Of a stretch of DNA of 64,000 nucleotides, positions 41,101 through 59,657 are shown piece after piece. Position numbers and translations under genes: made by a program. Location: positions 2,162,887 through 2,226,886 of the forward strand of contig NZ_CP031310.1 in NCBI RefSeq assembly GCF_004799665.1, written 5' to 3'. The notes under the pieces were generated by a model. The model was not told the origin of the DNA and made no database searches. It worked only from the letters and a program-made list of their open reading frames with translations. Origin of the DNA: Halapricum salinum. Lineage in GTDB: Archaea > Halobacteriota > Halobacteria > Halobacteriales > Haloarculaceae. Position 1 is the first letter of the stretch. Each line of letters begins with the position of its first letter.

Positions 41101-42858
41101 ATGACCGACTTTCCCTATAAAATAATTGGAAAGATCCAAGACGCCACTGGTGTGGGGGTTCTCGGACATAACACGGCAACAAGCGGGGAGACAATAGGCG
41201 TTGAGGGGAAGGTCGAGTCAACTAACGGTTACGGGCTATACACCGACAACGACGCACATATTGGCGGGAAATTAATCACAGGACAACTGGATGTCGAACC
41301 GCTTAAAATTGGTTACTGGACTGACTCTCACTACGGGACTGGAGAGCAAAAGCAGTTCGTTAGTACGAGTGCGCTAAACTCGAAAATCAGTGATTTCGCT
41401 GCTGATATGAATTCGTGGGGTGCTGATTTTGTCATTTTTGGCGGGGATAATGCGTTTGACGACCAATCAAGTCTCTCTGGGTCCCAAGAGAATCATCAAG
41501 AATTCTACGACCGGATGAGAACCTCTCTTGACAGTACTATTGGTATTCGGACTGTCGCTGGAAACCATGAGCACAACGAGTCAGTGACATGGGGTGATAT
41601 GTGGTGGGCTGATCCGTACCCACAGATGGAAACACTCTCGGACACCTTTTATTCGATTGATCGCCACCAAGCTAAGATCATCGTACTGAACACTAGTTAC
41701 GATGGTACCGATGATATTCAGGGTGGCACTCCGGCAGGCCAATATGAATGGTTCAAGTCGGAGCTTAAAACGACTGAGAAACCAATACTCGTCTTTACTC
41801 ATAATCCAATTCCGCCGGCAAACCACTCTGGTTACGATTCTATTGGCATCAACAATGAACAGAAGTATAGTCATCTTATGGATTCCTACGATAATATCGT
41901 CCTATGTACATTCGGGCATGCTCACCACTCCAACACATACGGACGAGAGCCAACGTGGGTCAAGTCGATGCTCCAGCAGTGGGGGTCAACCCGGTATCTC
42001 TACCAACACTATCCTCACTCTGTTGGTGGCATCAATAGTACTGAATTAGATGAGACTATCACCCCCTACGCCAAAATCTCAGTATATAAAAATGGGAATG
42101 TCAGTATTGAGCAGTCATATCGTGGCGCAGGTACCGGATATGCAACAAACTGGCGCTTTAATGGCTTCTCGCAGGCGAACACTGAATCACACTACAATTC
42201 GATGGAGTGGGAGTATACCGACGGTATTCAGTCGCTTGATGGATATGCAGTTGAAACAACTGGAAGTGATTCGTCGGTTACGATTGAGACAGGAGGACAG
42301 CAGCCACATTATTATTTAAAAGCTGATGCAGAGAGTGGCAGTAATTCTGCACTCCGTTACCAGCGACGACCCACACCACTTGTCGCGAATGAGGGATTGG
42401 ATTGGACTGATTGGATAACAAACGTTGTTATCCAGATAACAGACACATCTGGGATTGCAGGGTGGGTGACTCGTGGTGGGATTATGGGCGCCTCGAGATC
42501 GGCATACGCAGGATTGTATTTCAATGATGGTACTCTCTGGGGCCAAGTCTCTGATGGGTCCGGCGACCGACAACGGACCGCTACGCTTCCGTGGCCTAAT
42601 GAGCCCACTCATTATCAAATGCGCTACGACCACGAAGTCGGTCGTTTCGACGTAAGTGTAAACCACAACACAGTTAATGGGCTTTGGAGAGTGGATGAAC
42701 ATATACCTTCAGTTGACCATTCGGAGAATGGTGGCGATCCGGATGATCCGTGGAAGTTGCTTAACGCAACGGTACGCAACAAGGGGAGTTCTCAAAAGGG
42801 ACTCCGGATTTTCGATTGGTCCATTCGGATGAGCCCGTATATGAACTTCACGCTATGA
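41101..42858 (+). CDS. fibre-module metallophosphoesterase
   Basis: The ATG at 41101 (MTDFPYKIIGKIQDATGVGV) is preferred to a GTG at 41086. Residues 6-60 are the same module as the fibre proteins at 53178, 55744 and 57816 (GVLGHNTATSG, GYGLYTDNDAHIGGKL). A complete calcineurin-like core follows: GYWTDSHYG, VIFGGDNAFD, AGNHEHNE, VFTHNPIPP and TFGHAHHSN, with all metal motifs present. The last ~230 residues look like a jelly-roll beta domain (MEWEYTDGIQSLDGYAVETT onward). No signal peptide. It may act on phosphoester groups, perhaps as a surface-displayed or delivered enzyme. The DNA is AT-rich. Confidence 0.82.
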   Translation: MTDFPYKIIGKIQDATGVGVLGHNTATSGETIGVEGKVESTNGYGLYTDNDAHIGGKLITGQLDVEPLKIGYWTDSHYGTGEQKQFVSTSALNSKISDFAADMNSWGADFVIFGGDNAFDDQSSLSGSQENHQEFYDRMRTSLDSTIGIRTVAGNHEHNESVTWGDMWWADPYPQMETLSDTFYSIDRHQAKIIVLNTSYDGTDDIQGGTPAGQYEWFKSELKTTEKPILVFTHNPIPPANHSGYDSIGINNEQKYSHLMDSYDNIVLCTFGHAHHSNTYGREPTWVKSMLQQWGSTRYLYQHYPHSVGGINSTELDETITPYAKISVYKNGNVSIEQSYRGAGTGYATNWRFNGFSQANTESHYNSMEWEYTDGIQSLDGYAVETTGSDSSVTIETGGQQPHYYLKADAESGSNSALRYQRRPTPLVANEGLDWTDWITNVVIQITDTSGIAGWVTRGGIMGASRSAYAGLYFNDGTLWGQVSDGSGDRQRTATLPWPNEPTHYQMRYDHEVGRFDVSVNHNTVNGLWRVDEHIPSVDHSENGGDPDDPWKLLNATVRNKGSSQKGLRIFDWSIRMSPYMNFTL

Positions 42859-43180
42859 TGTTTCAGGCTTTTTTCGCGGATGACTTACCGACTTTATTAC
42901 AGATATTGTGTGAAATATTTAGATATTTTATATATTGGCAAGATGGCTAAGTAGAAGAGAAATATATTGTCTGGATAAACTGGACTAGGATGTGTGTTTT
43001 TATCTGGCGGACATTTGTCTGATTTGGATTTAGCATTCATCTCTGAAGAGTATATTAACATATCTGAAATTAAGCGCACAACGAGGGAGCGCGGCGTCCC
43101 ACTTTGCACATATTATATATGGCTGTCATATCCATTGATAAATAATAATGGTGCCAGAATTGCGCTTACAGAGTATCGGT
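42859..43180. other. AT-rich spacer with no supported gene
   Basis: This 322-base stretch lies between the convergent 3' ends of the metallophosphoesterase and flippase genes. A 68-codon frame on the plus strand (42994) has no haloarchaeal composition, no promoter at the right distance and no family I know. I see no repeat or RNA structure. Confidence 0.6.
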
Positions 43181-44614
43181 TCAGGCCCGCGATCTGGTGA
43201 CCGGAAGAACGGTTCTGGCAAACCGGATGAGAGGTTTACGCGAGGTCTGGAATAGGGCACACTGTACGCCGTACACGACGGCTCCAGACACGATAATGAA
43301 GGCTAGATCGTAAACCGAATTTATGCCGATTACACTGGAGAGAGCGAACACGGCAACGCCCATTACCGTCGCAGAGACACCAATCGTTAGTACCTGTGCG
43401 GAAGGGAAAACCAGTTCCATCTCAACATTCAAATAATAAACGATAATTATGGTTGAGATAGTGAACGCAACAGAGGTAGCCACGGCAGCACCAACTGCGC
43501 CGTAGAGAGGAATGAGCGCTATGTTTAACACAACGTTGCCCACTCCACTGGTTAGCGCTGCAATCGCACGGTACCGTGGCTTGTCAATACCTGACAACAC
43601 GTTCTTGTATATTCTGTCTATGACCTCTATCTGTTTCCCGAGCAACAGGATTAGCAGTGGTATCGCTGCTATAACATATTCTTGGCCAAAAATGATCGTC
43701 AGTATATCCTCTCCGACTGAAAAGGCCCCGGCAGTAATTGGGAAAACTAAAAAGAACGACAGAAATATCCCGTCCGATATATGTCCACGTATTTTGTCTG
43801 TCTCTTTTTGCATATTGAGATTGCTGATCTCGGGGAGAAGTGCCGTCTCGATAGACTCCGTAAATATCATAGCGAGACTTCCGATCCGCCAAGCGATCTC
43901 GTATGCAGCAACTACCGCAGGCCCAACAAAATACCCTAAAATTGTTATATCTGCCCAGTTATATAAATATCCGTCAACGAAACTCACTGAACTCCACTTC
44001 CAGTATTGGATCAACGACCGGGCGTGATACAGTGTTGGCCGACCGATTCTAGTTGACATCCGATAGAATGCTAAGCCTGCAGCTACGAGATTACCCAAAA
44101 TAAAACTGATCACGAGTGCTCTGACTGCGAAGCCCCGGTAGATTAGCAGTGCCCCACCTACTACCCAGACAAGCTTCTGGAAGAAAAGAATGTCCGCGGT
44201 GCTCCCCACTCTTAGTTCGCCTTTCAGTACGCCGATACCGAGTCGATTGAGACGAACGACTACAATACCGAGTATCAACCATAGCACTAGGTCCGTTTTG
44301 AAATACCAATTTACAACCGGGCTCGCGATGAATACCAGTATCCCGGTGAGGGTGGTTGCAATGATCATAAGGGCGATTGACGTGCCAAAAAATTGTTCGC
44401 GGTTTATGTCCTCACTCAGTCGTTTTACTAGTGCCCCACCCTGTCCAAAACTTGCAGGGATGCTGAGTAGTTGCAGAATACTCTGGTACAAAAAAAATGT
44501 CCCAAGCGCGCTCTGTGGAATTCGCTGTGCGAAATACGCCAAACCGACGAACGTCAGCACTGCATTGCTGAAACGTGCAACAAATAGCTTGGTTGATGAC
44601 TTGATCAGTTCCAT
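43181..44614 (-). CDS. Wzx-type flippase
   Basis: A 477-residue protein with ~14 TM helices in the MOP/polysaccharide-transport pattern (start MELIKSSTKLFVARFSNAVL; LLILLLGKQIEVIDRIYKNV; the C-terminal pair near LTIGVSATVMGVAVFALSSV). It would flip a lipid-linked oligosaccharide to the outer face for transfer by the STT3-like protein. It starts 4 bases after the FkbM stop, so the two are one unit. The composition is AT-rich, as typical of transferred glycan loci. Confidence 0.88.
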   Translation of the reverse strand: MELIKSSTKLFVARFSNAVLTFVGLAYFAQRIPQSALGTFFLYQSILQLLSIPASFGQGGALVKRLSEDINREQFFGTSIALMIIATTLTGILVFIASPVVNWYFKTDLVLWLILGIVVVRLNRLGIGVLKGELRVGSTADILFFQKLVWVVGGALLIYRGFAVRALVISFILGNLVAAGLAFYRMSTRIGRPTLYHARSLIQYWKWSSVSFVDGYLYNWADITILGYFVGPAVVAAYEIAWRIGSLAMIFTESIETALLPEISNLNMQKETDKIRGHISDGIFLSFFLVFPITAGAFSVGEDILTIIFGQEYVIAAIPLLILLLGKQIEVIDRIYKNVLSGIDKPRYRAIAALTSGVGNVVLNIALIPLYGAVGAAVATSVAFTISTIIIVYYLNVEMELVFPSAQVLTIGVSATVMGVAVFALSSVIGINSVYDLAFIIVSGAVVYGVQCALFQTSRKPLIRFARTVLPVTRSRA

Positions 44615-44618
44615 ACTG

Positions 44619-45413
44619 TCAGCGGTTCTCAGCTATCAGATGGTATGTATCGCCGTCCTCGTTGACCCGTTCGACATTGAACCCCATGTCACGTAGATAC
44701 GCTTCTATGTCGTTTGGATTGTTTCCAAAACGGCGTATCTCTTCTCTGTGGACCTCACAGTAGATGGCACGGGTTTGCTCAAGATGGTCGCCTAGACCGG
44801 TTAGCACGCCGAGCTCCGCCCCTTCGACGTCGATCTTTATTACATCAGGAATTGGTAGTTCATAGGTTGTAATTAACTCTTCACCCCTGTAAGTGGGCAC
44901 GTAGTGTTCCTCCTCTCCTCCGATACTCAGGTCAGCTACGCCTGGAGCACCGGAGCTCAACGGAAATGGGGACATACACGTTTGATCGGATACAAGAAGC
45001 TCATAGCTTCGTACGTTTCCGTTGTTCTTATTCATACTCTTGTGCATTCTATCCACGTTATCAGAGTGTGGCTCAAAGGCGAGCACAGTCGCATTGGGGT
45101 AGTTATTTGCAGCAAACACCGAATAGAGGCCGATATTCGCTCCGATATCGAACACTACGTCATCTGGTTCCATCTCTGAGAGGAACCGTTGAAGCACCTC
45201 CTGTTCACCTTTGAAATTACCTAATGAAAAATATTCTTCACTTGATGTAACTGTAAACGTTGCACTGTACTGCCCAGTACGTTTGATCAACTCACCACTG
45301 GTTTGGTAGAGTAGTAGTCGCTCATACGCAAAGGAGAGTATCGGCTTCAACCTCGTTCCGTCTACTATAGACTTCAATCTCCCCCTATATAATCTTCTTA
45401 ACCGTTGTGCCAT
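44619..45413 (-). CDS. FkbM-family methyltransferase
   Basis: A 264-residue SAM-dependent methyltransferase: VVFDIGANIGLYSVFAANNY is motif I, TVLAFEPHSDNVDRM motif II, and PDVIKIDVEGAELGVLTGLG the FkbM motif. It is likely to O-methylate a sugar of the surface glycan. It is first in a two-gene unit with the flippase. A TATA-like AT-rich stretch at 45441-45450 gives a near-leaderless start. Confidence 0.9.
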   Translation of the reverse strand: MAQRLRRLYRGRLKSIVDGTRLKPILSFAYERLLLYQTSGELIKRTGQYSATFTVTSSEEYFSLGNFKGEQEVLQRFLSEMEPDDVVFDIGANIGLYSVFAANNYPNATVLAFEPHSDNVDRMHKSMNKNNGNVRSYELLVSDQTCMSPFPLSSGAPGVADLSIGGEEEHYVPTYRGEELITTYELPIPDVIKIDVEGAELGVLTGLGDHLEQTRAIYCEVHREEIRRFGNNPNDIEAYLRDMGFNVERVNEDGDTYHLIAENR

Positions 45414-45440
45414 TGATATCAGTGGTATGCAGGTCAGCGG

Positions 45441-45450
45441 TTTAATTTAT
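45441..45450 (-). promoter_or_regulatory. TATA-like element for FkbM-flippase unit
   Basis: ATAAATTAAA on the minus strand is centred about 32 bases upstream of the ATG at 45413, leaving a leader of about five bases. Confidence 0.5.
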
Positions 45451-45622
45451 CTGGTGTCCGTTTCGGGAGCCAACACTGCTGGGGAATATTACTACACTTG
45501 ACAAATAATGGTGCGGCGTCCTGCTAGTCGCTGGTGTAACAGGTATTGTTTATTCATCCAGAAGGATGCATCCGTATCAAAAAGGTTTTCGTGTCAAAGA
45601 GCCCTAATTCTGGTGTTACTGT

Positions 45623-47002
45623 ATGGCTACACCGAACGTAATTGTACTTGTTCTTGACTCTGTCCGGCGTGATCACACCTCGACCTACGGGTACGAGAGA
45701 GCGACAACGCCAAATCTGAGCCGTCTTGCGAAAGAGGGGTTGTCCTTCACTCACGCGTACGCGACCGGGTCATGGACTGTCCCCTCTCACGCTTCGCTAT
45801 TTACTGGACAACTGCCAACGAAACACGGCACGCACGCGAATAATTTTCATTTCGAGTCCGCGCCCTCAGATACGCTTGCGGGACGTCTTGCGAGTGAAGG
45901 GTACGAAACGGCTCTCGTTACCCCGAATCCGTGGTTGACCCGTGATTTCGGTTTCGATACGGGTTTTGACGACGTTTTCGACCTTACTGTCACGCTACCT
46001 CACCCGTCTGCGGGCGATCCGCGACGCCTTGAGGTAGACGCGAAGTCAGTACAAGGCGTGCTGGAATCACTACGCTGGATGGTATCTGAACAACCACTTC
46101 GCCGTCTCCGGAATGGGCTCTTTCTTAAACGGAAAGACCTCTCGTTTGTTGACGCTTCAACAATCAACGAGGAGATAACTGATTGGCTGGGCGAAAACAG
46201 GGGCGACCGGCCGTTTTTTTTATTTGCAAACTATCTCGACGCTCACGATCCGTACCGTATCGGCTCGCAGCACAACGAGTTTATCGAGGATGGGCCACAC
46301 GGGGAACTTGGTGTCAAGTGGAATCTTGCGTCGATCGGTTCTCCTCCGGATGTCGATGCGGATCTGCTTCGCAATGCATACGACTCATCGCTCCATTATT
46401 TGGACGAACAAGTCGGAGAGCTTGTTGACAGTCTGAGTGACAAAGGATTGTTACATAATACTATGATCGTGGTACTAGGTGACCATGGTCAATGCCTGGG
46501 TGAACACGGGTACTGGGGTCATGGGACGTTCCTCTATCAGGAGTTGTTGGAAGTGCCGCTGATCGTGCGGCCACCCGGTGGGTGTTCGAGGAATGAAATC
46601 GAGAGCACCTTCTCGGTGTGTGACGTATTCGATTTGATTCTAGATACTGTCGAAACTGGAGAACTCGAACTGCCGGGGAGATCTGACGATGATAGAGTTG
46701 TTGCGGAGTCAACAGGGAAGCATCAGAACGTCGAAGTTCCGTCAGGCAGTGTTTCGTCGGATGGATACAGGGCGTCGGTAGTTGATGGCCGCCTGTTCAT
46801 ACGGAATCTGGAAAATGGTGACGTACGGACTGGGAGAAATGGAGAGCTGATAACCAGTGAAGACTTGCTCGACGACCTTGCCGCTACTGAGCAACAAGCA
46901 CTTGACAGTGGTGAGATTCAAGAGCTGAACGGCGACAGCCATTCTGGTGTAGAGATCAGCGATACGCGACGCGAGCAACTGGAAGGATTAGGATATTTAT
47001 AA
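45623..47002 (+). CDS. sulfatase-superfamily protein, Thr nucleophile
   Basis: The 459-residue protein has VIVLVLDSVRRDHTSTYGYE (metal site), GSWTVPSHASLFTGQLPTKH (nucleophile region: T-x-P-S-H in place of C-x-P-S-R), FLFANYLDAHDPYR, IVVLGDHGQCLGEHGYWGH (second metal site), and a C-terminal REQLEGLGYL. With Thr instead of Cys/Ser it cannot form formylglycine, so the activity is probably that of a phospho- or sulfo-transferase or phosphatase. Orientation is opposite to the other two family members in the island. Confidence 0.8.
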   Translation: MATPNVIVLVLDSVRRDHTSTYGYERATTPNLSRLAKEGLSFTHAYATGSWTVPSHASLFTGQLPTKHGTHANNFHFESAPSDTLAGRLASEGYETALVTPNPWLTRDFGFDTGFDDVFDLTVTLPHPSAGDPRRLEVDAKSVQGVLESLRWMVSEQPLRRLRNGLFLKRKDLSFVDASTINEEITDWLGENRGDRPFFLFANYLDAHDPYRIGSQHNEFIEDGPHGELGVKWNLASIGSPPDVDADLLRNAYDSSLHYLDEQVGELVDSLSDKGLLHNTMIVVLGDHGQCLGEHGYWGHGTFLYQELLEVPLIVRPPGGCSRNEIESTFSVCDVFDLILDTVETGELELPGRSDDDRVVAESTGKHQNVEVPSGSVSSDGYRASVVDGRLFIRNLENGDVRTGRNGELITSEDLLDDLAATEQQALDSGEIQELNGDSHSGVEISDTRREQLEGLGYL

Positions 47003-47142
47003 CCCTTACAATCCACACTCCAGAATATAAAGGCTCAGCGCCGGAACTGTTTCAGCACACTTGGCAGGGAATTTGCTTGCGGTTACAGCGATTCCCCCCC
47101 TTTCCTATGTCTATAAAAATCTGGTCTTGGTTGACACCCCCA

Positions 47143-47148
47143 TTTAAA
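47143..47148 (+). promoter_or_regulatory. TATA-like element upstream of the Tat fibre-like gene
   Basis: TTTAAA at 47143-47148 is the strongest of two AT cores (the other is TATAAAA at 47112-47118). Transcription from ~47172 would leave a ~60-base leader before the ATG at 47235. Confidence 0.4.
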
Positions 47149-47234
47149 CACAAAGACATAAGTCGTTCCACAGAAACTCAGACATATATCCACAAGTGGG
47201 GAAGCGGCAGATTGCCATTCCACTGGAGGAAATT

Positions 47235-48185
47235 ATGACAAACGATAAAAATACAGAAGAGGAAGATACGAAATCGTCTTTCAGAAGTACCCGGCGGGGA
47301 GCTCTTGTTTCGCTGGCTGGCCTCGGGCTTCTTTCCGCAAGTACTGGAACAGCAACTGCAGATGCTGCGGACGACCACGACCACGTCGGCCAAAGCTGGA
47401 CTGGTGACCCAGGCAACCGAGGCCTTTTAGTCAATGTTGGAACCAACACCCCGAAAGCTATCGAGGGGGCATCAAGTGATCCGAATGCAAAGGCCTTTGT
47501 CGGATTTGCCCAGTCTTCAAGTGGTTTTACAGAGGGATTCAGGGGTACGGTCCAGTCTCCTGATGGTAAAGGCGTATACGGTCGAGGAACAGCCGGTTCA
47601 GGGGCTTCTATCGGTGTTGAAGGCCGATCGCAGTCATATGAGGGGTATGGTGTCATCGGGCGAGCTCGGAACGGGAGCGGAACGTCATACGGTGTTGCCG
47701 GATTTACCAGTAGCCCCGACGGATATGGGCTGTACACACCACACGACGCGAAAGTCGACGGCGATCTCGAAGTCGGTGGCTCGGTGCAAAACACCCTGAA
47801 CGTCAATTCGGACCTGCAGGTCACGGGCACGAAGAACTTCGTGCAGGCGGTCGACACGACCGCAGGAACGAAGAACGTCCACTACACGTCCATCGAGGCA
47901 GGCGAGGTCCGGACCGAACACACCGGCGTCGCAGAGATGGAAGACGGTCACGCGCTGATCGAGCTGCCAGAGCACTTCGACATGGTTACCAGCGACGAGG
48001 AGCCGATCGCCGTGCAGGTGACGGCTCACGCCGAGGAGAGGGTCCATCCGCAGGTCGTCGAGAAATCGACGCGCTTCGTCTCTGTCGAGGACTTCGGTGA
48101 TGGCCCCGCCGACTACAGCTTCTCGTATACGGTCAAGGGTGTCCGCGCAGGCTACGAGGACGAAGAAGTCGTTCGCGATCAGTAA
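47235..48185 (+). CDS. Tat-exported glycine-repeat protein with tail-fibre-like C-terminus
   Basis: The ATG at 47235 gives 316 residues with a Tat signal (STRRGALVSLAGLGLLSAST, cleavage near ATADA). The middle repeats GVYGRGTAGSG, IGVEGRSQSYEGYGVIGRA, YGVAGFTSSPDGYGLYTPHD then KVDGDLEVGG: the same pattern as the fibre-module proteins, whose N-termini carry one copy. The C-terminal ~110 residues (VTGTKNFVQAVDTTAGTKNV, ALIELPEHFDMVT, ending FSYTVKGVRAGYED) match a domain of bacterial repeat proteins as I recall them (KNF...H.S.E.PE pattern). It is the only member with a signal. Position next to rmlC suggests a glycoprotein. Confidence 0.78.
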   Translation: MTNDKNTEEEDTKSSFRSTRRGALVSLAGLGLLSASTGTATADAADDHDHVGQSWTGDPGNRGLLVNVGTNTPKAIEGASSDPNAKAFVGFAQSSSGFTEGFRGTVQSPDGKGVYGRGTAGSGASIGVEGRSQSYEGYGVIGRARNGSGTSYGVAGFTSSPDGYGLYTPHDAKVDGDLEVGGSVQNTLNVNSDLQVTGTKNFVQAVDTTAGTKNVHYTSIEAGEVRTEHTGVAEMEDGHALIELPEHFDMVTSDEEPIAVQVTAHAEERVHPQVVEKSTRFVSVEDFGDGPADYSFSYTVKGVRAGYEDEEVVRDQ

Positions 48186-48263
48186 CAATTCCGGCTTTCT
48201 ATTTTGTCGCCAGCCGACACTACAAAACGGCTTTACAACAGGGAGTGCTATCGCCCACAAGCG

Positions 48264-48731
48264 ATGATACACGACGTCGAACTCAAAGACCTCCAGGTCA
48301 ACCTCGACGAACGCGGAACACTCACGGAAATCTGGCGCTCTGACTGGGATTTCTTCGAGGGTGAGGACGAACCCGCGATGTCCTACCTCTCAGTTTCATA
48401 CCCAGGCGTAATCCGCGCCTGGCACCGCCACACCCGCGGACAGATCGACCACTTCGTGGTCCCACACGGCAACGTGAAAGTCGGGATCTACGACGACCGT
48501 GAAGACTCACCGACACAGGGCGAACTCGATACGTTCGTCATCGGCGAGGACAACATGCAGGCGGTCCGCATCCCCGGCGACTGCTGGCACGGCTTCAAGG
48601 TCGTCGGCAACGAGCAGGCGACCCTGATCAACTTCCCAACGAACCGCTACGACTACGAGGATCCAGACGAGGAGCGCTTGCCGCCGGATACCGACGAAAT
48701 ACCTTTAGACTGGGACGAACAGATCTACTAA
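48264..48731 (+). CDS. rmlC: dTDP-4-dehydrorhamnose 3,5-epimerase-like cupin
   Basis: The ATG at 48264 (MIHDVELKDLQVNLDERGTL) gives a 155-residue cupin of the RmlC family. AWHRHTRGQIDHFVVPHGNV has the active-site His and adjacent strand, and PGDCWHGFKVVGNEQATLIN closes the fold. Slightly shorter than bacterial RmlC, as common in archaea. It is first in an operon with rmlA (2-base gap) and the zinc-ribbon gene. Makes dTDP-4-keto-L-rhamnose for the glycan. Confidence 0.9.
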   Translation: MIHDVELKDLQVNLDERGTLTEIWRSDWDFFEGEDEPAMSYLSVSYPGVIRAWHRHTRGQIDHFVVPHGNVKVGIYDDREDSPTQGELDTFVIGEDNMQAVRIPGDCWHGFKVVGNEQATLINFPTNRYDYEDPDEERLPPDTDEIPLDWDEQIY

Positions 48732-48733
48732 CG

Positions 48734-49807
48734 ATGAAAGGCGTCCTCCTCGCTGGCGGGACCGGGTCTCGTCTCCGTCCGATTACCCACACCGGCCCGA
48801 AACAGCTGCTTCCCGTGGCGAACAAACCGGTCCTCGAATACGCGATCGAAGACCTTCGCGACGCCGGGATCACCGAGATCGGTGTCGTCCTCGGCAACAA
48901 GGGTAGAGAGGCGATTCAGGATCACCTCGGAGATGGGTCACACCTGGGTGTCGACATCACGTACATCGTGCAGGGCAATCCGCTGGGACTCGCCCACGCC
49001 GCAGCGTGTGCTCGCGAGTTCGTCGGCGACGACGACTTCGTGATGTACCTCGGCGACAACATCCTCAAACAGGGGATCGAAGAGCTGGTCGAGAGCTTCG
49101 AAGCCGGTGACTTCGGGGCCGGGATCGCGCTGCAGGAGGTCGAAAATCCCCGGGAGTTCGGGATCGCCGACACGAATGCCGACGGCGAAGTCACCGCACT
49201 CGTCGAGAAACCGGACGACCCGCCGAGCAATCTCGCGCTCATCGGGATCTACGCGTTTTCGAACGCGGTGTTCGACGTGATCGAGGAGCTCGAACCGTCC
49301 TGGCGGGGCGAGCTGGAGATCACCGACGCGATCCAGGAACTCCTCGAATCCGGGCACGCGATCGACTCGCACGTCGTCGAAGGGTGGTGGAAAGACACCG
49401 GCCGACCGGAGGACATTCTTCACGCGAATCGACTCGTCCTGAAGGATATCGAATCCGAACACGCTGGAACTATCGAAGCGGGTGCCGAAGTCGTCGGTCG
49501 GGTCGAACTCGCACCCGAAGCCACGATCGAATCCGGCGCAGTCGTCCGGGGCCCAGTATCGATCGCGGAGGGGTCGACAATCGGGTCTGAGACGTATGTC
49601 GGCCCGTATACGTCGATCGGGCCCGACTGCGTCGTCGACGGCGCCCACATCGAGAACACTGTCCTCGTCGGAGAATCCACAGTCACGAGTGACGGAAAGA
49701 TCGTCGACAGCCTGGTCGGCCGAAACACGACGATCGGAAGCGCGGCAGACGAACTCCCTGACGGCCGACGACTGATCGTCGGCGAGAACTCCAATCTCAA
49801 ACTATAA
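48734..49807 (+). CDS. rmlA: glucose-1-phosphate thymidylyltransferase
   Basis: The 357-residue protein has the nucleotidyltransferase start MKGVLLAGGTGSRLRPITHT, KQLLPVANKPVLEYAIEDL, DDFVMYLGDNILKQG, and WWKDTGRPEDILHANR. The C-terminal ~110 residues are a left-handed beta-helix repeat (GAEVVGRVELAPEATIESGA), the long archaeal RmlA form. It converts glucose-1-phosphate and dTTP to dTDP-glucose, the first step toward dTDP-rhamnose. It is 2 bases downstream of rmlC. Confidence 0.93.
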   Translation: MKGVLLAGGTGSRLRPITHTGPKQLLPVANKPVLEYAIEDLRDAGITEIGVVLGNKGREAIQDHLGDGSHLGVDITYIVQGNPLGLAHAAACAREFVGDDDFVMYLGDNILKQGIEELVESFEAGDFGAGIALQEVENPREFGIADTNADGEVTALVEKPDDPPSNLALIGIYAFSNAVFDVIEELEPSWRGELEITDAIQELLESGHAIDSHVVEGWWKDTGRPEDILHANRLVLKDIESEHAGTIEAGAEVVGRVELAPEATIESGAVVRGPVSIAEGSTIGSETYVGPYTSIGPDCVVDGAHIENTVLVGESTVTSDGKIVDSLVGRNTTIGSAADELPDGRRLIVGENSNLKL

Positions 49808-49809
49808 CG

Positions 49810-49989
49810 ATGCGCGTCATCACCCACAGCTGTCCGGAGTGTGGCACAGTGGTCGCGGCGAACGAACTGGAAGCGAACCGGGTCATGAAGTGTCCGGGCT
49901 TAGAGTGCGAGGCCGTCCTCAGGTTCGACGATCTCGATCTCGAAGCGCGCGAGCACTTCGTCGACCACCGAGAACAGTATCAGATCTAG
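49810..49989 (+). CDS. 59-residue zinc-ribbon protein in rml operon
   Basis: The ATG is 2 bases after the rmlA stop. The frame reads MRVITHSCPECGTVVAANEL with CPECG, then KCPGLEC a few residues later, a four-Cys metal site, and an acidic helix to the TAG. It overlaps the convergent rmlD gene by four bases. Co-transcription with rmlC-rmlA is nearly certain; the role is unknown. Confidence 0.72.
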   Translation: MRVITHSCPECGTVVAANELEANRVMKCPGLECEAVLRFDDLDLEAREHFVDHREQYQI

Positions 49990-50882: not shown

Positions 50883-50906
50883 AGCGGCCCAAAGGGTGAT
50901 GAAAAC

Positions 50907-50914
50907 CATAAAAT
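50907..50914. promoter_or_regulatory. shared divergent TATA core for rmlD and rmlB
   Basis: A single AT core (CCATAAAA) sits in the 55-base rmlD/rmlB spacer. It is about 27 bases upstream of the rmlB ATG on the plus strand and about 28 bases upstream of the rmlD ATG when read on the minus strand. Both starts are then leaderless, so one core could serve both genes. Confidence 0.55.
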
Positions 50915-50937
50915 GAGCGGGTCGCCGTAGGGGAGAT

Positions 50938-51861: not shown

Positions 51862-51907
51862 CCTGCTGAACGTCATCTCCTCTCGTTCTTCTCGACCTAA
51901 CGCACGC

Positions 51908-52924
51908 TCAGAACTCGAACGCGTACACCCCACCACCGTCGCCGGCGACGAACAGCCTGTCGTCGTCGACGATAGGCGCGGACCGAAGCTCACAGGGCAA
52001 CTCGACGTGGCCCTCGGCCGTGCCTGCCTCGGCATCGAGGACGTAGAGGTCGCCCTTGAGCGAGCCGGCGACGAGTCGATCCCCACCGAGGGCGGGCGTC
52101 GCGGTGATGGCGATGTCCCACGTTCGGAACGCCCAGTCTGGGGCGTTGACGAGCACGCTTTCGTCGTGTTGAATCGCGTACATCGTCCCGCTGCCGCCGC
52201 CGACGTACACCCCGCGTTCGTCGAACACCGGTGCCGATCCGGCGCTCGTCCCGAAGAACGACGTGCCCCAGGAGAGCGAGCCGTCGTCACTGCGGAGCGC
52301 TCGCAGTTCGTTCGCGGCGAAGTAGACCATACCTTGCGAATCGTCGACGGCCGGCGAGCCCGCACCGACGTCCGCACTGAACGGCATCGCCCACACCCGA
52401 CGACCGCCGTCGGCCGCGTCGTGGGCTCGCAACTCCGTCTTCGAGGTGAAGTAGAGCGTCTCTTCGACGCTCGAATAGGCGATGTCCGAGACAATTCGCG
52501 AGCCGGTGTCGAACTCGAAGAGCACCGATCCAGTCACGGCGTCCAGCGCGAGCAAGACGCCGTCGTTTCGGCCCACGTAGACAACGCCATCGCGAACGAT
52601 CGGCGAGGTCGTGATCGCGCTCGGGCCCGCATAGCGCCACACGATCGATCCATCCTCGGCGTCCAGTGCGTAGACCGACCCGCCGCCGCTGCCGACGTAG
52701 ACAATTCCGTCGTGATAGGCGGGCGAGGAGTCGGACATCGAGCCGTCGCGCTCGACGGTCCAGACGATTCGTCCGTCCTCGCGGGACAGTGCGTACAATG
52801 ACGTGCCCAGTCCGCCCACGAATACGCGGTCGTCGTCGAGGGCTGGCGAACAGGTCTGGAAGGACGTCTCTATAGCAGTCTCCTGTCGCCAGACTGTTTT
52901 GATCTCGCTCGACGACCCTTCCAC
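51908..52924 (-). CDS. PQQ-type beta-propeller protein
   Basis: A GTG at 52924 is chosen because a TTAATCAT core lies about 25 bases upstream and the frame to the ATG at 53050 has no haloarchaeal composition. The 338-residue protein is an almost bare propeller: the repeats ALDDDRVFVGGLGTSLYALS, YHDGIVYVGSGGGSVYALDA, VRDGVVYVGRNDGVLLALDA through VDDDRLFVAGDGGGVYAFEF each carry the V-GG--G-YAL pattern. No signal peptide. The closest partner in this window is the C-terminal half of the subtilase at 59664, and the ends are nearly the same (VYAFEF versus VYAFE). Quinone binding is not shown. Confidence 0.8.
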   Translation of the reverse strand: MEGSSSEIKTVWRQETAIETSFQTCSPALDDDRVFVGGLGTSLYALSREDGRIVWTVERDGSMSDSSPAYHDGIVYVGSGGGSVYALDAEDGSIVWRYAGPSAITTSPIVRDGVVYVGRNDGVLLALDAVTGSVLFEFDTGSRIVSDIAYSSVEETLYFTSKTELRAHDAADGGRRVWAMPFSADVGAGSPAVDDSQGMVYFAANELRALRSDDGSLSWGTSFFGTSAGSAPVFDERGVYVGGGSGTMYAIQHDESVLVNAPDWAFRTWDIAITATPALGGDRLVAGSLKGDLYVLDAEAGTAEGHVELPCELRSAPIVDDDRLFVAGDGGGVYAFEF

Positions 52925-53177
52925 GCTACTATTCAGTCGCTTGACAATGATTAATTCTTCCCTTCCACACCACCTGTGATCGCGTGCCGGTTCGGAGCGA
53001 GTAGGGCGAGTCCGAGGGCCAACCAGTAGGGGCTCAGTACTGCCATCCACGACGGATTCCCTGCGGACAGCAGACGGCCCCGACGATACTGCTGGCAGGA
53101 GTCTTTATCGTGGTTGGCTCTTTCTTACTCTGAGAGTAGTCTGGTCGCGACGACGGGTGGGACACCAAGGGAATCAT

Positions 53178-55616
53178 ATGACAGAGCCGAAAGAGACAGC
53201 GACGGACACTGAATCGAAAACGACTGACAGCCAGCCGACAGCGTTCGACCCGGCGACCTACAAGGTGTTGGGTGAGCTTACCGACAGCACGGGAACCGGC
53301 GTGCTCGGTCGAAATCTGGCGACGACGGGCGACGCCGCGGGCGTGACTGGAACAACAGATTCTCCGGATGGGTATGGACTGGCGACCCCGGACGACGCGC
53401 TGGTAGAGGGGACGCTCTCGACGGTCGGCGAGTGGCTGGTGACTTCGAACGACACGCGCCTCTTTCTCCATACCGCCGAGGATCCGAGCGGCGACGCCGG
53501 CAACGTCCTGGCGGGCCACTCCGCGAACACCATCGGCGCGGGCGTCGCGGGTGCGACGATCGCTGGCGGTGGCTTCGACGACGGATCGTCCCCGGTCCCG
53601 AACCTCGTCTACGACGATTACGCGACGATATCGGGGGGACGGCAAAACGAAGCCGGGACCGACGACGGCGACCCGACGAGCGCGCGGTTCGCGACGGTCG
53701 GTGGCGGCGAGGACAACACCGCGTCGGCGAATCACGCGACAGTCGCGGGCGGGAACGCGAACACGGCAAGCGATCGGGAGACGACCGTCGGCGGCGGCGA
53801 GCGAAACGTCGCCAGTGGTCCGAACGCGGTGGTCGGCGGCGGGTACATCAACGAGTCGACGGCGACACAGACGACGGTCGCCGGCGGCCGCCAGAACGTC
53901 GCTGGCGGCGCGTACGACACGATCGCGGGTGGCTCGCGAAACACGAGCCAGGGATACGCCGCGGCGATTCCGGGCGGATACGAGAACAGCGTGACCAGCA
54001 ACTACGGGGCCGTCGGTGGCGGCCAGCATAACAGCGCAACCAGATCCTACGCTACTGTGGGCGGCGGTCAGAACAACGACGCCAACGGTACCTACGCGAC
54101 CATCGGCGGTGGCGGCCCCTCGGACCCTTCGACAGAGACGACACGAGAGAATACGAAAAACGAGGCCAAAGACGACTACTGTACCGTCGCGGGCGGCGGT
54201 GGAAACGTCGCCGGGGCTGGCTCGAACACGGCGCCGAACGCGACGGTCGGCGGCGGCACCGACAACATGGCCACTGACGAGCATGCGACCGTCGCTGGTG
54301 GCGACGCCAATACGGCCAGCGGTACCTACGCCACTGTCGGGGGCGGCACTGGGAACACTGCCAGTGGCGATCGGACGACCGTCTGTGGTGGGTGGAATAA
54401 CCTCGCTGCCGGGGCTGGGTCGTTCATCGGCGGCGGCGGTGGGAGTTCCGCGATAAACGAGGCCTACGCCAGAAGCGCGGTCATCGTCGGTGGGTACGCG
54501 AACACGGTCGGCGATCCGGTCGACGAGTTCGTCGGCTGGGTGGGGACGATCGCTGGGGGATACGGCAACCAGAACACCGGCCAGTACTCGGCGATCGGCG
54601 GCGGCTTCGAGAACGTCGTCGATGGGAATCGATCGGTAGTCGCCGGCGGGAACCGAAACTCGGCCGGTGGTCCGAGGGCGATGATCCCCGGCGGCAGCAG
54701 CAACCAGGCAAACGGGGACTCGAGTTTCGCGGCCGGGACGAAGGCCGTCGCGACCCACGACGGCGCGTTCGTCTGGAGCGACTCGGCGTTCTCGACGTTC
54801 GAATCCACAGGCGATGATCAGTTCCTCGTCGACGCCGCCGGTGGGACCGGGATCGGGACGAACGCGCCCGAGAGCCAACTGCACGTCACTGACGCGATCG
54901 CCTCGAATTCCGGCGCGCCGTCGGGGCACGTCGCGACCATCGAGAACACCTCGACGAGCACCTCCGCGGACGTGCTCGCACTGAAGACCAACGCCTCGAC
55001 GCCCGACGGTGCGAACAACTACGTCGTCTTCCTCGCGGCGAACAACGACGCCGTCGGAGCGATCGACGGGACCGGCGGGGGTGGCGTGAACTACAAGAGC
55101 GGATCGGCCGACCTGGCGGAGTACTTTCCGAAAGCCGATCCCGGGGCCGACTTCGAGGCCGGCGACGTCGTCGGACTCCGCGAGGGACAGCTGGTCGCCG
55201 ACCCCGGAGCCTGCGAGACGGCACTGGTCGTCTCGGAGTCACCGATGGTGACCGGCAACGTTCCCGACGAAGAAGATGGCTACGCCTGTGTCGCGCTGCT
55301 CGGGCAGGTCCCGGTGACGGTCGAGGGAGAGGTCGCCGCTGGCGACCGACTGGTCGCAACTATGTCTGGGCGTGCCGTGCGGACCCAGGACGGTCCGGAG
55401 AGCGCCCCCACCATCGGAACCGCGCTTACCGACGCCGAGGACGGATCAGTCACGGCGCTGATCGGGCAGTCGGTGACCGCTCCGACCGGAGCCGAGGCGG
55501 AACTACGAGACGAGAACGAACGTCTCCGCGTGGACAACGCGGAACTACGATCGCGCATGGACGCTATCGAGACACACCTCGGACTCGACGCAGACCCCGC
55601 ACCCGCGGACGACTGA
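53178..55616 (+). CDS. fibre protein: YadA-like head with SADLAEYF C-terminal domain
   Basis: The ATG at 53178 gives 812 residues. Acidic arm (1-27), module at ~28-83 (TYKVLGELTDSTGTGVLGRN, DGYGLATPDDALVEGTL), then about 22 YadA-like head units of pattern ATVGGGEDNTASANHATVAG, an SSFAAGTKAVATHDGAFVWS motif, and a SADLAEYFPKADPGADFEAG domain of tail-fibre type, ending in a short coiled coil (ELRDENERLRVDNAELRSRM) and LGLDADPAPADD. No signal peptide or membrane anchor. The repeat geometry predicts a trimeric beta-solenoid. First in a row of three related genes. Confidence 0.85.
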   Translation: MTEPKETATDTESKTTDSQPTAFDPATYKVLGELTDSTGTGVLGRNLATTGDAAGVTGTTDSPDGYGLATPDDALVEGTLSTVGEWLVTSNDTRLFLHTAEDPSGDAGNVLAGHSANTIGAGVAGATIAGGGFDDGSSPVPNLVYDDYATISGGRQNEAGTDDGDPTSARFATVGGGEDNTASANHATVAGGNANTASDRETTVGGGERNVASGPNAVVGGGYINESTATQTTVAGGRQNVAGGAYDTIAGGSRNTSQGYAAAIPGGYENSVTSNYGAVGGGQHNSATRSYATVGGGQNNDANGTYATIGGGGPSDPSTETTRENTKNEAKDDYCTVAGGGGNVAGAGSNTAPNATVGGGTDNMATDEHATVAGGDANTASGTYATVGGGTGNTASGDRTTVCGGWNNLAAGAGSFIGGGGGSSAINEAYARSAVIVGGYANTVGDPVDEFVGWVGTIAGGYGNQNTGQYSAIGGGFENVVDGNRSVVAGGNRNSAGGPRAMIPGGSSNQANGDSSFAAGTKAVATHDGAFVWSDSAFSTFESTGDDQFLVDAAGGTGIGTNAPESQLHVTDAIASNSGAPSGHVATIENTSTSTSADVLALKTNASTPDGANNYVVFLAANNDAVGAIDGTGGGGVNYKSGSADLAEYFPKADPGADFEAGDVVGLREGQLVADPGACETALVVSESPMVTGNVPDEEDGYACVALLGQVPVTVEGEVAAGDRLVATMSGRAVRTQDGPESAPTIGTALTDAEDGSVTALIGQSVTAPTGAEAELRDENERLRVDNAELRSRMDAIETHLGLDADPAPADD

Positions 55617-55743
55617 ATAGTCTCGGTGTATTTCTCAGAATCGATAGCTATCCCCCGAAAGCTAAGGTATCCCATATCCATCTGTTCGCATCCACTGCCC
55701 AGCATCGGCAGTGATCGGCGCGCTCAGCGACCACTGGTGACAC

Positions 55744-57618
55744 ATGACGGACTCCGAAGACCAGACCGACATCGACGACGAACAGCTCGACTCGACCCCA
55801 CCATCTCAGGCGATGGCCGCCTCGTCGTACAAGATTCTGGGCGAGTTCTCCGATAGCTCGGGCGCGGGCGTCCTGGGGAAAAACACCGCGAGCAACGGGA
55901 CACCGATCGGCGTGCAGGGTGCGGTGCCGAACGCCAGCGGCGGCTTTGGATTAGATACGCCCGACGACGCGCGAGTGGGGGGTGCGATCGAAACGCCGAC
56001 CGGCCACAACCTCACCGTCGACGGATCGACGGTCTTTCGAACGGAAGCGCTGGGGACCGACGGGAACGGCAACACTACGGGTGGCTCCATCGTCGGTGGC
56101 ATGCCGCTCAACAGTGCCAACGGTGCCGTCGGTGCGGTGATCGGCGGCGGTGGCGCGAGTGGCGACGAGGACCTGGGTGGTAGTATCGGCGTGCGAACGA
56201 ACAATAACCAAGTCCTCTACGATTTCGGGACGATCAGCGGCGGCTTCAACAATCGGGCCTATTCTGAGGCAGTGGTGGCTGGTGGGAGCCGAAATACAGC
56301 CAGCAACACGCGGGCGACAGTGTCTGGCGGCTGGCGGAACGTCGCAAGCGCGTCCGGATCGACGATCGGTGGCGGCGGCTCGAACACCGCTGCCGGAACG
56401 GACGCGACCGTCGCTGGCGGGACCCTGAACGAAGCCTACACCGGGTTCGACTCGATCGGTGGCGGGAGTTACAACCAGGTCGGCTGGCCCAGCACGACGC
56501 CGAACCTCTACGGGACGGTCGGTGGCGGCTGGCTCAACCACGTCGAGGGGAAGTACGGGACGATCGCCGGTGGCGCGCCGAGCGACACGACCGACTGGAC
56601 GAGCCAGAACGATACGAACAACACCGTCTACGACGACTACGGATCGATCGGCGGCGGTGGCGGCAACCAGGCTGGAACATCCACCTCGGGTACGGAAGAC
56701 GGAATCTTCGCCACGGTTCCAGGCGGACGGGACAACACGGCCTCGGGCGCGTATAGCTTCGCCGCGGGCCGCCAGGCCCAAGCCGAACACGACGGCGCGT
56801 TCGTCTGGGCCGACTCGACCTCTGGCAGTGTCACCTCGACTGCGAGCAATCAGTTCCTGATCGAAGCAGGCGGCGGCGTCGGCGTGAACACGACCTCCCC
56901 GGACGCGCCACTCGACGTCGGCGGCGGGAACAACTTCGATCTCCAGGCGACGGAAGGCGATTTCAAGATCGGTGACGACACCCATCGGTTCAAGATCGGC
57001 GTCGCGACCGGTGGCGGCGGGGCCGGAATCGCCACCATGCGCGCACAGAGTTCGAACATCAACAAACTCAATCTCGGGGCCGGGACGAGCGACGTCGTCT
57101 CGATCGAGACCGATTCGGTCAGCAGCGTCTATCCCGCTAGCGACAACACCTACTCGCTGGGTAAGAGTGGGAATCGCTGGAGTGCGATCTACGCCGCCGA
57201 CGGGACGATCCAGACCTCCGACGCCCGACTGAAGACCAACGTCTCCGATCTCGACAGCGGAATCGAGACTGTCCAGGCGCTCCGGCCAGTCTCCTACGAG
57301 TGGGACGAGGAGACCGATGAAGCCCAGGCGGAAGCCGACACTCGGCTGGGACTGATCGCCCAGGAAGTCGCCGACGTGGTTCCGGAAGCTGTCGTCGAAC
57401 CCGAGGACGCCGACGGGCCCCTGGGACTGGCCTACGACATGCTGATTCCCGTCCTGCTGGATGCGGTCGACGAGCAGCAGGAGACGATCGACGATCTCCA
57501 GACAGAGAGCGAACATCTCCGGGAGCGAAACGCCAACTTGGAGGGGCGTCTGGACGCAGTCGAGGCCCATCTCGGACTGAGCGGCACTGATGGTACTGCG
57601 ACGCCGGCTGACGACTGA
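55744..57618 (+). CDS. fibre protein with peptidase S74 chaperone domain
   Basis: A 624-residue protein: acidic arm with EQLDSTPPSQAMAASSYKIL, module at ~29-85 (GVLGKNTASNG, GGFGLDTPDDARVGGAI), about ten YadA-like units (TISGGFNNRAYSEAVVAGGS), the YSFAAGRQAQAEHDGAFVWA stretch, then NSYSLGKSG-type lead-in and a C-terminal S74 domain (QTSDARLKTNVSDLD with the Ser-Asp cleavage start; RLGLIAQEVADVVPEAVVEP) followed by a coiled coil (ETIDDLQTESEHLRERNANL) ending LEGRLDAVEAHLGL. In phage tailspikes S74 trimerises the fibre and cuts itself off; here this implies assembly of a stable trimer. No signal peptide. Confidence 0.88.
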   Translation: MTDSEDQTDIDDEQLDSTPPSQAMAASSYKILGEFSDSSGAGVLGKNTASNGTPIGVQGAVPNASGGFGLDTPDDARVGGAIETPTGHNLTVDGSTVFRTEALGTDGNGNTTGGSIVGGMPLNSANGAVGAVIGGGGASGDEDLGGSIGVRTNNNQVLYDFGTISGGFNNRAYSEAVVAGGSRNTASNTRATVSGGWRNVASASGSTIGGGGSNTAAGTDATVAGGTLNEAYTGFDSIGGGSYNQVGWPSTTPNLYGTVGGGWLNHVEGKYGTIAGGAPSDTTDWTSQNDTNNTVYDDYGSIGGGGGNQAGTSTSGTEDGIFATVPGGRDNTASGAYSFAAGRQAQAEHDGAFVWADSTSGSVTSTASNQFLIEAGGGVGVNTTSPDAPLDVGGGNNFDLQATEGDFKIGDDTHRFKIGVATGGGGAGIATMRAQSSNINKLNLGAGTSDVVSIETDSVSSVYPASDNTYSLGKSGNRWSAIYAADGTIQTSDARLKTNVSDLDSGIETVQALRPVSYEWDEETDEAQAEADTRLGLIAQEVADVVPEAVVEPEDADGPLGLAYDMLIPVLLDAVDEQQETIDDLQTESEHLRERNANLEGRLDAVEAHLGLSGTDGTATPADD

Positions 57619-57679
57619 CTGTGTCGGCCGGCAGTCCAGCCGGTCGAGGATTGGCTGTGTCGGCCGGTAGTCCAGCCGG
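57619..57679 (+). repeat. two 25-bp direct repeats, spacing 36 bp
   Basis: CTGTGTCGGCCGGCAGTCCA at 57619 and the same with one C-to-T change at 57655, each extending to GCCGG. Each copy contains a CCGGC...GCCGG inverted pair and follows the stop of the S74 fibre gene. It could be a double terminator or a duplicated binding site. Confidence 0.5.
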
Positions 57680-57815
57680 CCAACGACTGACCGATCCCGA
57701 CACAGCGCCATCTCGGAACTCTTCTTCCCTGAGAACTATGGTGTCTGGCCTCCATCTTGTGTCATCTACTGCCCTGTCGACGACGGTTGGCGGACGCAGT
57801 GCCCGAAGGGAACTC

Positions 57816-58184
57816 ATGACCGACGCAGAAGACCTCACAGAAGACGAACAACTCGACTCGAACGCACTCTCCCAGGCGATGGCCGTGGCTTCGACATACA
57901 AAATTCTGGGCCAGCTGACCGACAGTTCGGGAGTCGGAGTGCTGGGACAGAACGACGCCGAGAGCGGAACGCCGATCGGCGTCCAGGGCTCCGTCCCGAA
58001 CGCCAGCGGGGGCTACGGGCTGTACACGGACGACGACGTGGGAGTCTTCGGGGACATACGGACGGTCGGTTCGCTCAACGTCGTCGTGAACAGCGACACC
58101 GTCGCGCAGATCCGAAGGAACCAGAGTTCGGGGGCAGCAGGCCAGGTCAGGTTCGGCCACTCCGAGAACCAGGCGTTCAGCTGA
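57816..58184 (+). pseudogene. fibre gene 5' fragment, truncated before the head domain
   Basis: From the ATG at 57816 the frame reads an acidic arm (MTDAEDLTEDEQLDSNALSQ), the same module (STYKILGQLTDSSGVGVLGQ to GYGLYTDDDVGVFGDIRTV), and AAGQVRFGHSENQAFS. It then stops at TGA in the left end of the TnpB element. The homologue at 53178 continues GNVLAGHSANTIG into the YadA-like head, so this copy ends at the junction. The 3' end of the same gene survives at 59577. The fragment may still be expressed as a short module protein. Confidence 0.82.
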
Positions 58185-58198
58185 GGCGGTAGCGCGGA

Positions 58199-58244
58199 GT
58201 CCCCTTCCTCAAGGAACGAGCGAGGCGAGTGAGTAGGGAGGGGA
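58199..58244 (+). repeat. left-end hairpin of the TnpB element
   Basis: TCCCCTT at 58199 pairs imperfectly with AGGGAGGGGA around 58236-58245, across a GC-rich loop (GAACGAGCGAGGCGAGTGAG). Subterminal hairpins of this kind are the recognition sites of IS200/605 transposases. Confidence 0.5.
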
Positions 58245-58276
58245 GGAGCGCGTTCGTATGGACGATAGACACCATT

Positions 58277-58284
58277 CTATAAGT
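58277..58284 (+). promoter_or_regulatory. TATA box of tnpB
   Basis: CTATAAGT is centred 28 bases upstream of the GTG at 58308, giving a leaderless tnpB transcript. Confidence 0.5.
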
Positions 58285-58307
58285 AGCCACGGCAATACAT
58301 TGAAACT

Positions 58308-59567
58308 GTGGCAGACGACTACGTGCGTCGGACGGCAATCACTCGTCTCGAGGTCTCGGACGAGCAACGCGCCCTCCTCGAAGATACTATCTCCGAGTGG
58401 AAGCGTGGTTGCCAAATCGCTACAGACATGGCGTGGGGCAAGTGCAACGCGAAAAGCGACGTACAGCCCCTCGCCTACGATGAGCTTCGCGAACAGACCG
58501 ACCTCGGTAGTCAGCACGCGATTCTCGCCACTCACCAAGCCGCACAAGCCATCACCGGCTGTATCGAACGCCTCTCGGCAGGCAAGAAGGTCAGCAAGCC
58601 CACCTTCAGCGCACCCACTGTCAAATATGACACCCGGACGATGACGCTGTTTGACGACGGTACAGTGTCGCTTTCTACCACGGAACGTCGCGTCCGGTGT
58701 GACCTTGCTCTGCCCGACGCTGACGACGGCTACCAGCGGCAGTACCTTGACTCGGACGAATGGAGCGTCACAGAAAGCACACTCACCGCCCGCGACGGCG
58801 ACTACTTTTTGCACATCGGCTTCCGCCGACACAAGACCGATGCCGAACGGAACACCGCCGAGGACGGAACGGTTCTCGGGGTTGACCTCGGTATCGAAAA
58901 CCTCGCCGTCACCAGCACTGCTTACTTCTTCAGCGGGCGAGAGTTAACCCATGACCTCCATGAGTTCGAGAAGGTGCGTGCGGGACTCCAACAGACCGGA
59001 ACGCGAAGCGCCCACCGAACGCTCGAACAGTCGAGTGGCCGCGAACTTCGGTACATCCGTGACGTACTCCACCGAGCGTCGAACGCCATCGTTGATGAAG
59101 CACTCCGATACGAGTGCGACGTGATAGCGTTCGAGGATTTGACGGACATCCGCGACCGGACAGGAGCGTCGTGGGGTCACACGTGGGCGTTCCGAACGCT
59201 GTACGAACAAGTCGAGTACAAAGCCCAAGCGGTCGGCGTTTCGGTGAAACAGGTGGGTTCGGCGTACACGTCAAAACGGTGTGCTGAGTGTGGATTCACG
59301 GCAGATGAGAATCGCGCGACTCGCAACGACTTCCGGTGTGTGAAGTGTGGGTCGGAAGCGAACGCAGACTACAACGCGGCGAAGAATATCGGGATGCGGT
59401 ACGTCCGTCGAGGCCAACAGTCGTCTCGGCGGACGGGCAACAGTCAACTTGCCCTAAAGTCTGGGACGGTGAACGCGAGCGGCGATTATACCGCCCACCG
59501 AGATTCGGTCAGAGCCGGAGTCCACGGACAAGCCCCGTCCTCAAACGCGAGCGTCAGCGAGCGTTAG
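58308..59567 (+). CDS. tnpB: TnpB RNA-guided nuclease
   Basis: A 419-residue TnpB starting with GTG. RuvC-like active site: TVLGVDLGIENLAVT (Asp), VIAFEDLTDIR (Glu), and NADYNAAKNIGMRYV (Asp), with the zinc finger CAECGFT...CVKCGSEA in between. All catalytic residues are present and the frame is intact, so the nuclease may be active. TnpB uses a guide RNA made from the right end of its own element to cut empty target sites. No tnpA partner is nearby. Confidence 0.93.
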   Translation: MADDYVRRTAITRLEVSDEQRALLEDTISEWKRGCQIATDMAWGKCNAKSDVQPLAYDELREQTDLGSQHAILATHQAAQAITGCIERLSAGKKVSKPTFSAPTVKYDTRTMTLFDDGTVSLSTTERRVRCDLALPDADDGYQRQYLDSDEWSVTESTLTARDGDYFLHIGFRRHKTDAERNTAEDGTVLGVDLGIENLAVTSTAYFFSGRELTHDLHEFEKVRAGLQQTGTRSAHRTLEQSSGRELRYIRDVLHRASNAIVDEALRYECDVIAFEDLTDIRDRTGASWGHTWAFRTLYEQVEYKAQAVGVSVKQVGSAYTSKRCAECGFTADENRATRNDFRCVKCGSEANADYNAAKNIGMRYVRRGQQSSRRTGNSQLALKSGTVNASGDYTAHRDSVRAGVHGQAPSSNASVSER

Positions 59568-59597
59568 GGCGGGGTAGTTGACACGCGGCTCGAAACC
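59440..59597 (+). ncRNA. predicted TnpB guide RNA (omegaRNA/sotRNA)
   Basis: Bounds are inferred. In this family a sense-overlapping RNA from the 3' end of tnpB and the right end acts as the guide RNA. The scaffold hairpin is at 59533-59574. The guide would begin at about 59575-59577, at once in the 3' remnant of the fibre gene (TTGACACGCGGCTCGAAACC). Such sotRNAs are known from haloarchaeal IS1341 elements. Confidence 0.5.
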
Positions 59598-59657
59598 GTC
59601 GAAGCCCATCTTGGATTGGACGGAAACGGTGACACTGCCACGCCGGCCGACGACTGA
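59577..59657 (+). pseudogene. fibre gene 3' remnant, coiled-coil end
   Basis: The frame reads VDTRLETVEAHLGLDGNGDT then ATPADD and TGA, matching the last residues of the two intact fibre proteins (LEGRLDAVEAHLGL...ATPADD and SRMDAIETHLGL...APADD). It has no start of its own. It is the far end of the gene begun at 57816, with the head and chaperone domains missing. It ends 6 bases before the convergent subtilase gene. Confidence 0.85.

Follow-up and report, generated by a model that had tools for sequence, protein, structure and literature searches.

The window analysed here, 64,000 nucleotides of the 3.45 Mb single-contig genome of Halapricum salinum (C1:2162887-2226886), encodes members of a real, rare and modular family of fibre proteins that share a conserved N-terminal YKILG module, carry chaperone domains of the kind found in phage fibres, have no export signal, and have fibre bodies that occur elsewhere behind other N-termini. 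With 12 proteins in four genomes, the family matches the description given in an earlier sequence-only reading of this DNA, a conserved N-terminal module on diverse C-terminal cargo; the further interpretation offered there, an assembly or sorting module that loads different domains onto one surface structure, is partly supported. We tentatively propose, with confidence short of even, that these signal-less, trimeric, phage-tail-fibre-like proteins dock on a partner with a twin-arginine translocation (Tat) signal, are exported folded and act at the surface of a few haloarchaea.

The module consists of a YK[IV]LG cap, two GVxG repeats and then GYGL.TPDDA. Within the window, sequence searches located it on the forward strand in the proteins starting at 41101 (module at 41116-41274, converted from genome positions), 53178 (53256-53423), 55744 (55822-55995) and 57816 (57891-58064), the four proteins in which it had first been noticed. 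Profile E-values for these copies (2.7e-27 to 2.4e-31 and 5.7e-32) lie well outside what chance would give, although the profile had itself been derived from the copies it later scored; a single-sequence search with one copy recovered the three others at E 4.8e-13 to 1.4e-20. An acidic arm precedes the cap in the 53178, 55744 and 57816 proteins, three of the four as described, and the SQAMA lead common to the last two is real; the 41101 protein has no arm, its cap lying at residue 6. The H. salinum genome encodes eight module-bearing proteins, with profile E-values of 5e-21 to 2e-34; four of them lie outside the window: two adjacent genes at C1:1216840 and C1:1219291 (L014), one at C1:2227413 that begins about 460 bp past the window end (L015), and one at C1:3170432 that is split by an in-frame TAA (L016). 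Together with the copies in other genomes, these show that the module also occurs away from this locus. Eleven columns are invariant in an alignment of nine copies (K10, G13, G22, V23, G25, N27, G32, G36, V37, G39 and G47). A search of the PDB with the module gave no meaningful match, and no shared regulatory motif above shuffles was found in the regions upstream of the module genes.

The possibility had been raised that the module merely forms part of a generic GVxG solenoid and has no separate role. Roughly two thirds of it does fit that description, since the GVxG...GYGL.TPDDA part is also present in the 47235 protein of the window and in other Tat-exported proteins. The Tat-type proteins have no YK[IV]LG, however, and this start is conserved in almost every copy, usually at 26-30 residues from the N-terminus, and across five architectures, which makes a purely generic solenoid improbable. 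Because the remainder also occurs in Tat-exported proteins, specificity lies in the YK[IV]LG cap and not in the module as a whole.

The cargo behind the module is of several types: a phosphoesterase, a YadA-like head with an S74 domain, a YadA-like head or solenoid with a SADLAEYF domain, and a solenoid with a jelly-roll-like end. The 41101 protein (41101-42858) has a metallophosphoesterase-like domain, with a partial SpdA match (E 1.9e-10, below cut-off) and the motifs DSH, GDN, GNHE and GHAH read by eye, followed by a C-terminal part. The 53178 (53178-55616) and 55744 (55744-57618) proteins continue with a YadA-like head, marked by GGG..N.AS repeats and by LbR_Ice_bind and UspA1_rep matches below cut-off, a chaperone domain and a coiled coil. 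In the 55744 protein, the C-terminal end matches Peptidase_S74 (E 2e-15; residues 492-550, 57217-57393). The corresponding region of the 53178 protein (approximately 55059-55433) is the SADLAEYF domain, which recurs in the C1:1216840 and C1:2227413 proteins. The domain is present as first described, and its identity can be refined: all three examples match Pfam Peptidase_G2 (best E 4.9e-4), the match of the listed member lying below the curated cut-off, as for a distant relative, and profile matches to chaperones in the PDB range from E 1.2e-4 to 0.0048, including the chaperone of tailspike Dpo31 (E 1.2e-4) and the phi29 preneck appendage (E 0.004). A D..EY motif and a GQVPV region are invariant across the three. 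These matches identify the domain as an intramolecular chaperone of the Peptidase_G2 type, the kind found in the spikes of phage phi29, so that both main C-terminal types are intramolecular chaperones of trimeric phage tail fibres, and by analogy with the S74 and Peptidase_G2 families they are probably self-cleaved. Fourteen of 25 family members with YadA-head, S74 or G2 fibres end in ADD whatever their N-terminus, compared with 5 of 287 other frames, a comparison uncorrected for relatedness.

By a simple pattern and hydropathy check, rather than a trained predictor, all 12 module proteins lack a signal peptide, in agreement with the sequence-only reading. Eleven have neither an RR motif nor a hydrophobic stretch in their first 70 residues and no membrane segment, and the twelfth (L169) starts with an acidic arm and is likewise without a signal. 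The YadA-like head repeats are common to bacterial trimeric autotransporter adhesins of the YadA type; unlike these, the YKILG proteins have no signal peptide, their chaperone is at the C-terminus, and Pfam scans of the module proteins detected no YadA membrane anchor domain. Searching for a conserved block of the YadA head (A3) placed such fibres in 17 of 322 genomes, with N-termini that differ: Tat in 11 (G032, G028, G099, G150, G288, G238, G089, G157, G284, G092 and G177), a second module, NVPN, in two (G019 and G303) and YKILG in two (H. salinum itself, G000, and G300), the N-terminus being unreadable in the other two (in G335 the start lies outside the locus and in G087 the gene is interrupted). 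Some versions of the same fibre body thus have a signal of their own and others do not, and YKILG sits at the signal's usual position. In G041, one protein (L024) runs from a Tat signal through GVxG repeats directly into a YadA head, the layout that YKILG replaces, and in G007 another (L041) runs, by eye, from Tat through GVxG to a beta-helix-like region. The Tat-exported haloarchaeal YadA-head/S74 fibres (L126, L128-L130, L132-L134 and L136-L139) share the head block, S74, coiled coil and often the ADD end with the YKILG proteins, which have the cap where the former have a Tat signal, frequently preceded by an N-terminal coiled coil. That coiled coil, predicted by eye in many of them (L126, L132, L134 and L137-L139), stands ahead of the Tat signal as if trimerization preceded export. 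Tat signals on homologous bodies elsewhere make a sorting or docking role for the module reasonable.

NVPN is also a signal-less N-terminal module on diverse C-terminal domains, including YadA heads and S74. Its sequence (NHxYNTPxxGxxDWHxPLNxNFxxxDxDVEIRD...ATDTGxVYxGDG) is unrelated to YKILG, with only a weak Mtd_N match in Pfam, and it is far commoner, occurring in 98 of 391 haloarchaeal genomes including that of H. salinum (L202 8648-11574; other loci are L157 8724-11087, L158 9112-10902 and L170-L199). NVPN genes usually follow a gene encoding a GYGG motif: this lies directly upstream in 17 of 24 readable loci, drawn from the 30 best matches and not a random sample, and of the 17, 12 match the pattern of a Tat lipobox and 2 carry a plain Tat signal, the proteins often ending in YGxxGYGG. 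In both genomes with an NVPN-start YadA head, the fibre gene is 13-16 bp downstream of a Tat lipoprotein gene. The pairing provides a precedent, short of proof of joint export, for fibres that lack a signal themselves but have a partner that bears one.

We infer trimerization, self-cleavage, docking, export and adhesion of the YKILG fibres as the steps of the proposed route. The chains would trimerize and fold in the cytoplasm, aided by the C-terminal S74- or Peptidase_G2-type intramolecular chaperone, which is probably then self-cleaved off the fibre. The YKILG cap and two GVxG turns would form a docking piece, standing where homologous fibres of other haloarchaea have their Tat signal and N-terminal part, and the folded fibre would most likely exit through the Tat pathway as cargo of a signal-bearing partner. 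It would stay attached to that partner, and its head or enzyme would meanwhile act on surface glycans or other cells. The Tat pathway carries folded proteins, and a subunit lacking a signal can travel together with one that has it, as with HybO/HybC of E. coli. A candidate carrier is the protein at 47235-48185 (forward strand), in which the Tat signal and related repeats noticed earlier were confirmed; its GVxG repeats end in a GYGLYTP.DAKVDG element. It is a weak candidate, put forward on the strength of the shared GVxG/GYGL element and its place in the same cluster, and weakened because Halorubrum sp. Hd13, which has the module, has no such protein. A 63% identical protein of this Tat and GVxG type is present in Halobacteriales archaeon QH_10_67_22, which also has YKILG. 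We ruled out the 47235 type as a universal partner, as it is absent from Halorubrum Hd13 and from G052 and has no clear full-length homologue in a Halovenus metagenome-assembled genome (MAG); a generic adjacent Tat lipoprotein was also rejected.

Several results weigh against docking and Tat export: the missing 47235-type protein in Halorubrum Hd13, the absence of an adjoining Tat partner gene in operon order from the YKILG genes examined, and the breakage of two of the eight H. salinum copies (57816 and C1:3170432; the others are open). Structure prediction points the same way, as the module falls below pLDDT 50 in the monomer model of the 55744 protein, where only the head and coiled coil reach about 70-85, and a Foldseek search returned no match with E below 1; a monomer model of the 41101 protein from its single sequence was unusable. 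The wider proposition, that interchangeable signal-less modules (YKILG and, widely, NVPN) dock on a Tat carrier that brings folded, self-chaperoned trimers out, a previously undescribed two-component display route, seems unlikely to us as it stands.

The module itself is rare. A strong match was found in 2 of 391 sampled genomes of the class (H. salinum and G300), with the best 15 candidates per genome scored, so this is no widespread archaeal system. Adding a contig scan brought the total to the 12 proteins in H. salinum, the Halovenus MAG, Halorubrum sp. Hd13 (L035, the same locus as L038 of G300) and QH_10_67_22 (L036, the same locus as L020 of G030). The Halovenus MAG has two (L034 and L169/L165), the second seen in overlapping loci at a contig end, of which L165 ends in a domain that looks jelly-roll-like by eye. 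G052 contains a weaker relative without the cap, three times. The Halorubrum copy (L035 9740-11593) differs ahead of the cap, where a CarboxypepD_reg domain (E 6.4e-18) replaces the acidic arm.

This distribution bears on the main rival explanation, which we consider doubtful: that the organism's own contractile injection system (CIS) uses the module proteins as exchangeable receptor-binding fibres or as spike cargo, so that they need no signal peptide. H. salinum has a CIS cluster (C1:1609375-1624700; L030-L031) with sheath, gp19-type tube, CIS_tube/LysM, gp25-like, two baseplate-J-like and tail protein I-like genes and no recognizable fibre gene, a vacancy that the module proteins could fill. 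An unusually long putative reading frame, with 1,944 codons and a basic, Ser/Arg-rich composition, lies upstream of the cluster. A sheath was found in three of the four module genomes compared with 49 of 391 sampled (12.5%), a chance of about 0.007 if the genomes are independent, and G089 and G278 each have a T4 gp19-type tube gene with a signal-less NVPN/S74 fibre gene immediately behind it, followed by a small gene with a Tat signal and GYGEGG repeats (L200 9278-10953 and L201), with no sheath detected in either genome. However, Halorubrum sp. Hd13, a 100% complete genome, has the module and no sheath, two of the three sheath-positive module genomes are MAGs, and no module gene lies near the CIS cluster. 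The three sheaths are not mutually closest relatives (63% and 49% identity), which rules out a single clade of sheaths. A haloarchaeal CIS, found in about 12% of Halobacteria, acts in Halogeometricum like a type VI secretion system with DUF4157 proteins as cargo (PMC11566945). Those proteins resemble the YKILG proteins in being signal-less in a CIS-encoding genome, but the latter have no DUF4157, and a Pfam scan of the window gave no match to this cargo marker.

Their architecture also invites the reading that these are captured virus genes, whose products are cytoplasmic or freed only by lysis, like viral tail fibres, and may have no surface role. Phage tail fibres and tailspikes (endosialidase S74, phi29 gp12/Peptidase_G2 and Dpo31) are likewise signal-less, with a modular N-terminal piece, a variable middle and a C-terminal self-chaperone and coiled coil, and the breakage of two of eight copies would be in keeping with such an origin. 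Unlike phage fibres, the YKILG proteins have YadA-like heads and several copies in one chromosome, some beside glycan genes; the neighbours of module genes are glycan, sulfatase and housekeeping-type genes, with no virus genes nearby. Viral contigs searched with the module and with the 55744, 53178 and 41101 proteins held no relatives, and among phage records the 55744 protein matched over its S74 region only and the 41101 protein not at all. With several frames of 600-800 codons intact and the closest haloarchaeal relatives Tat-exported, capture without a surface role is, in our judgement, rather unlikely.

A further alternative takes the genes for degenerate or reserve copies, stripped of a former Tat signal and kept as recombination cassettes for a surface fibre. 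The eight H. salinum copies have mosaic middles, the 3170 copy has its in-frame TAA, and the gene at 57816 is indeed disrupted, as had been thought, though beyond simple interruption: it keeps its module and 122 N-terminal codons (57816-58184), followed by an inserted element whose TnpB (58308-59567, recognized by domain and protein matches) has no TnpA beside it, and then only 24 original C-terminal codons (59583-59657; TRLETVEAHLGLDGNGDTATPADD then stop, ending ATPADD), with the middle lost. Close to the C1:1216840 copies there is a second TnpB-like frame (L014 276-1262). Lost signals would not be expected to leave a cap conserved across genera and families, however, and the acidic-arm starts are intact, with DNA identity among the modules within the H. 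salinum genome of only about 70-78% and no long identical tracts, so we regard reserve copies as a poor explanation. Two further genes beside the fibre genes, both on the reverse strand, encode a subtilase with a PQQ beta-propeller (59664-62315) and a lone PQQ propeller similar to it (51908-53050), neither with an evident signal peptide.

A literature search on YadA and S74 in haloarchaea returned nothing pertinent from the library searched. Extracellular-type fibres with phage chaperones and no export signal raise the question of how a large folded trimer crosses the archaeal membrane, for which the commoner NVPN/GYGG pairing may be the better entry point. The same body occurs with Tat, NVPN or YKILG, so that exchanging these N-termini could reveal what the module does. 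Should the fibres indeed dock on a Tat carrier, this would account for a class of haloarchaeal surface proteins that signal-peptide predictors overlook.

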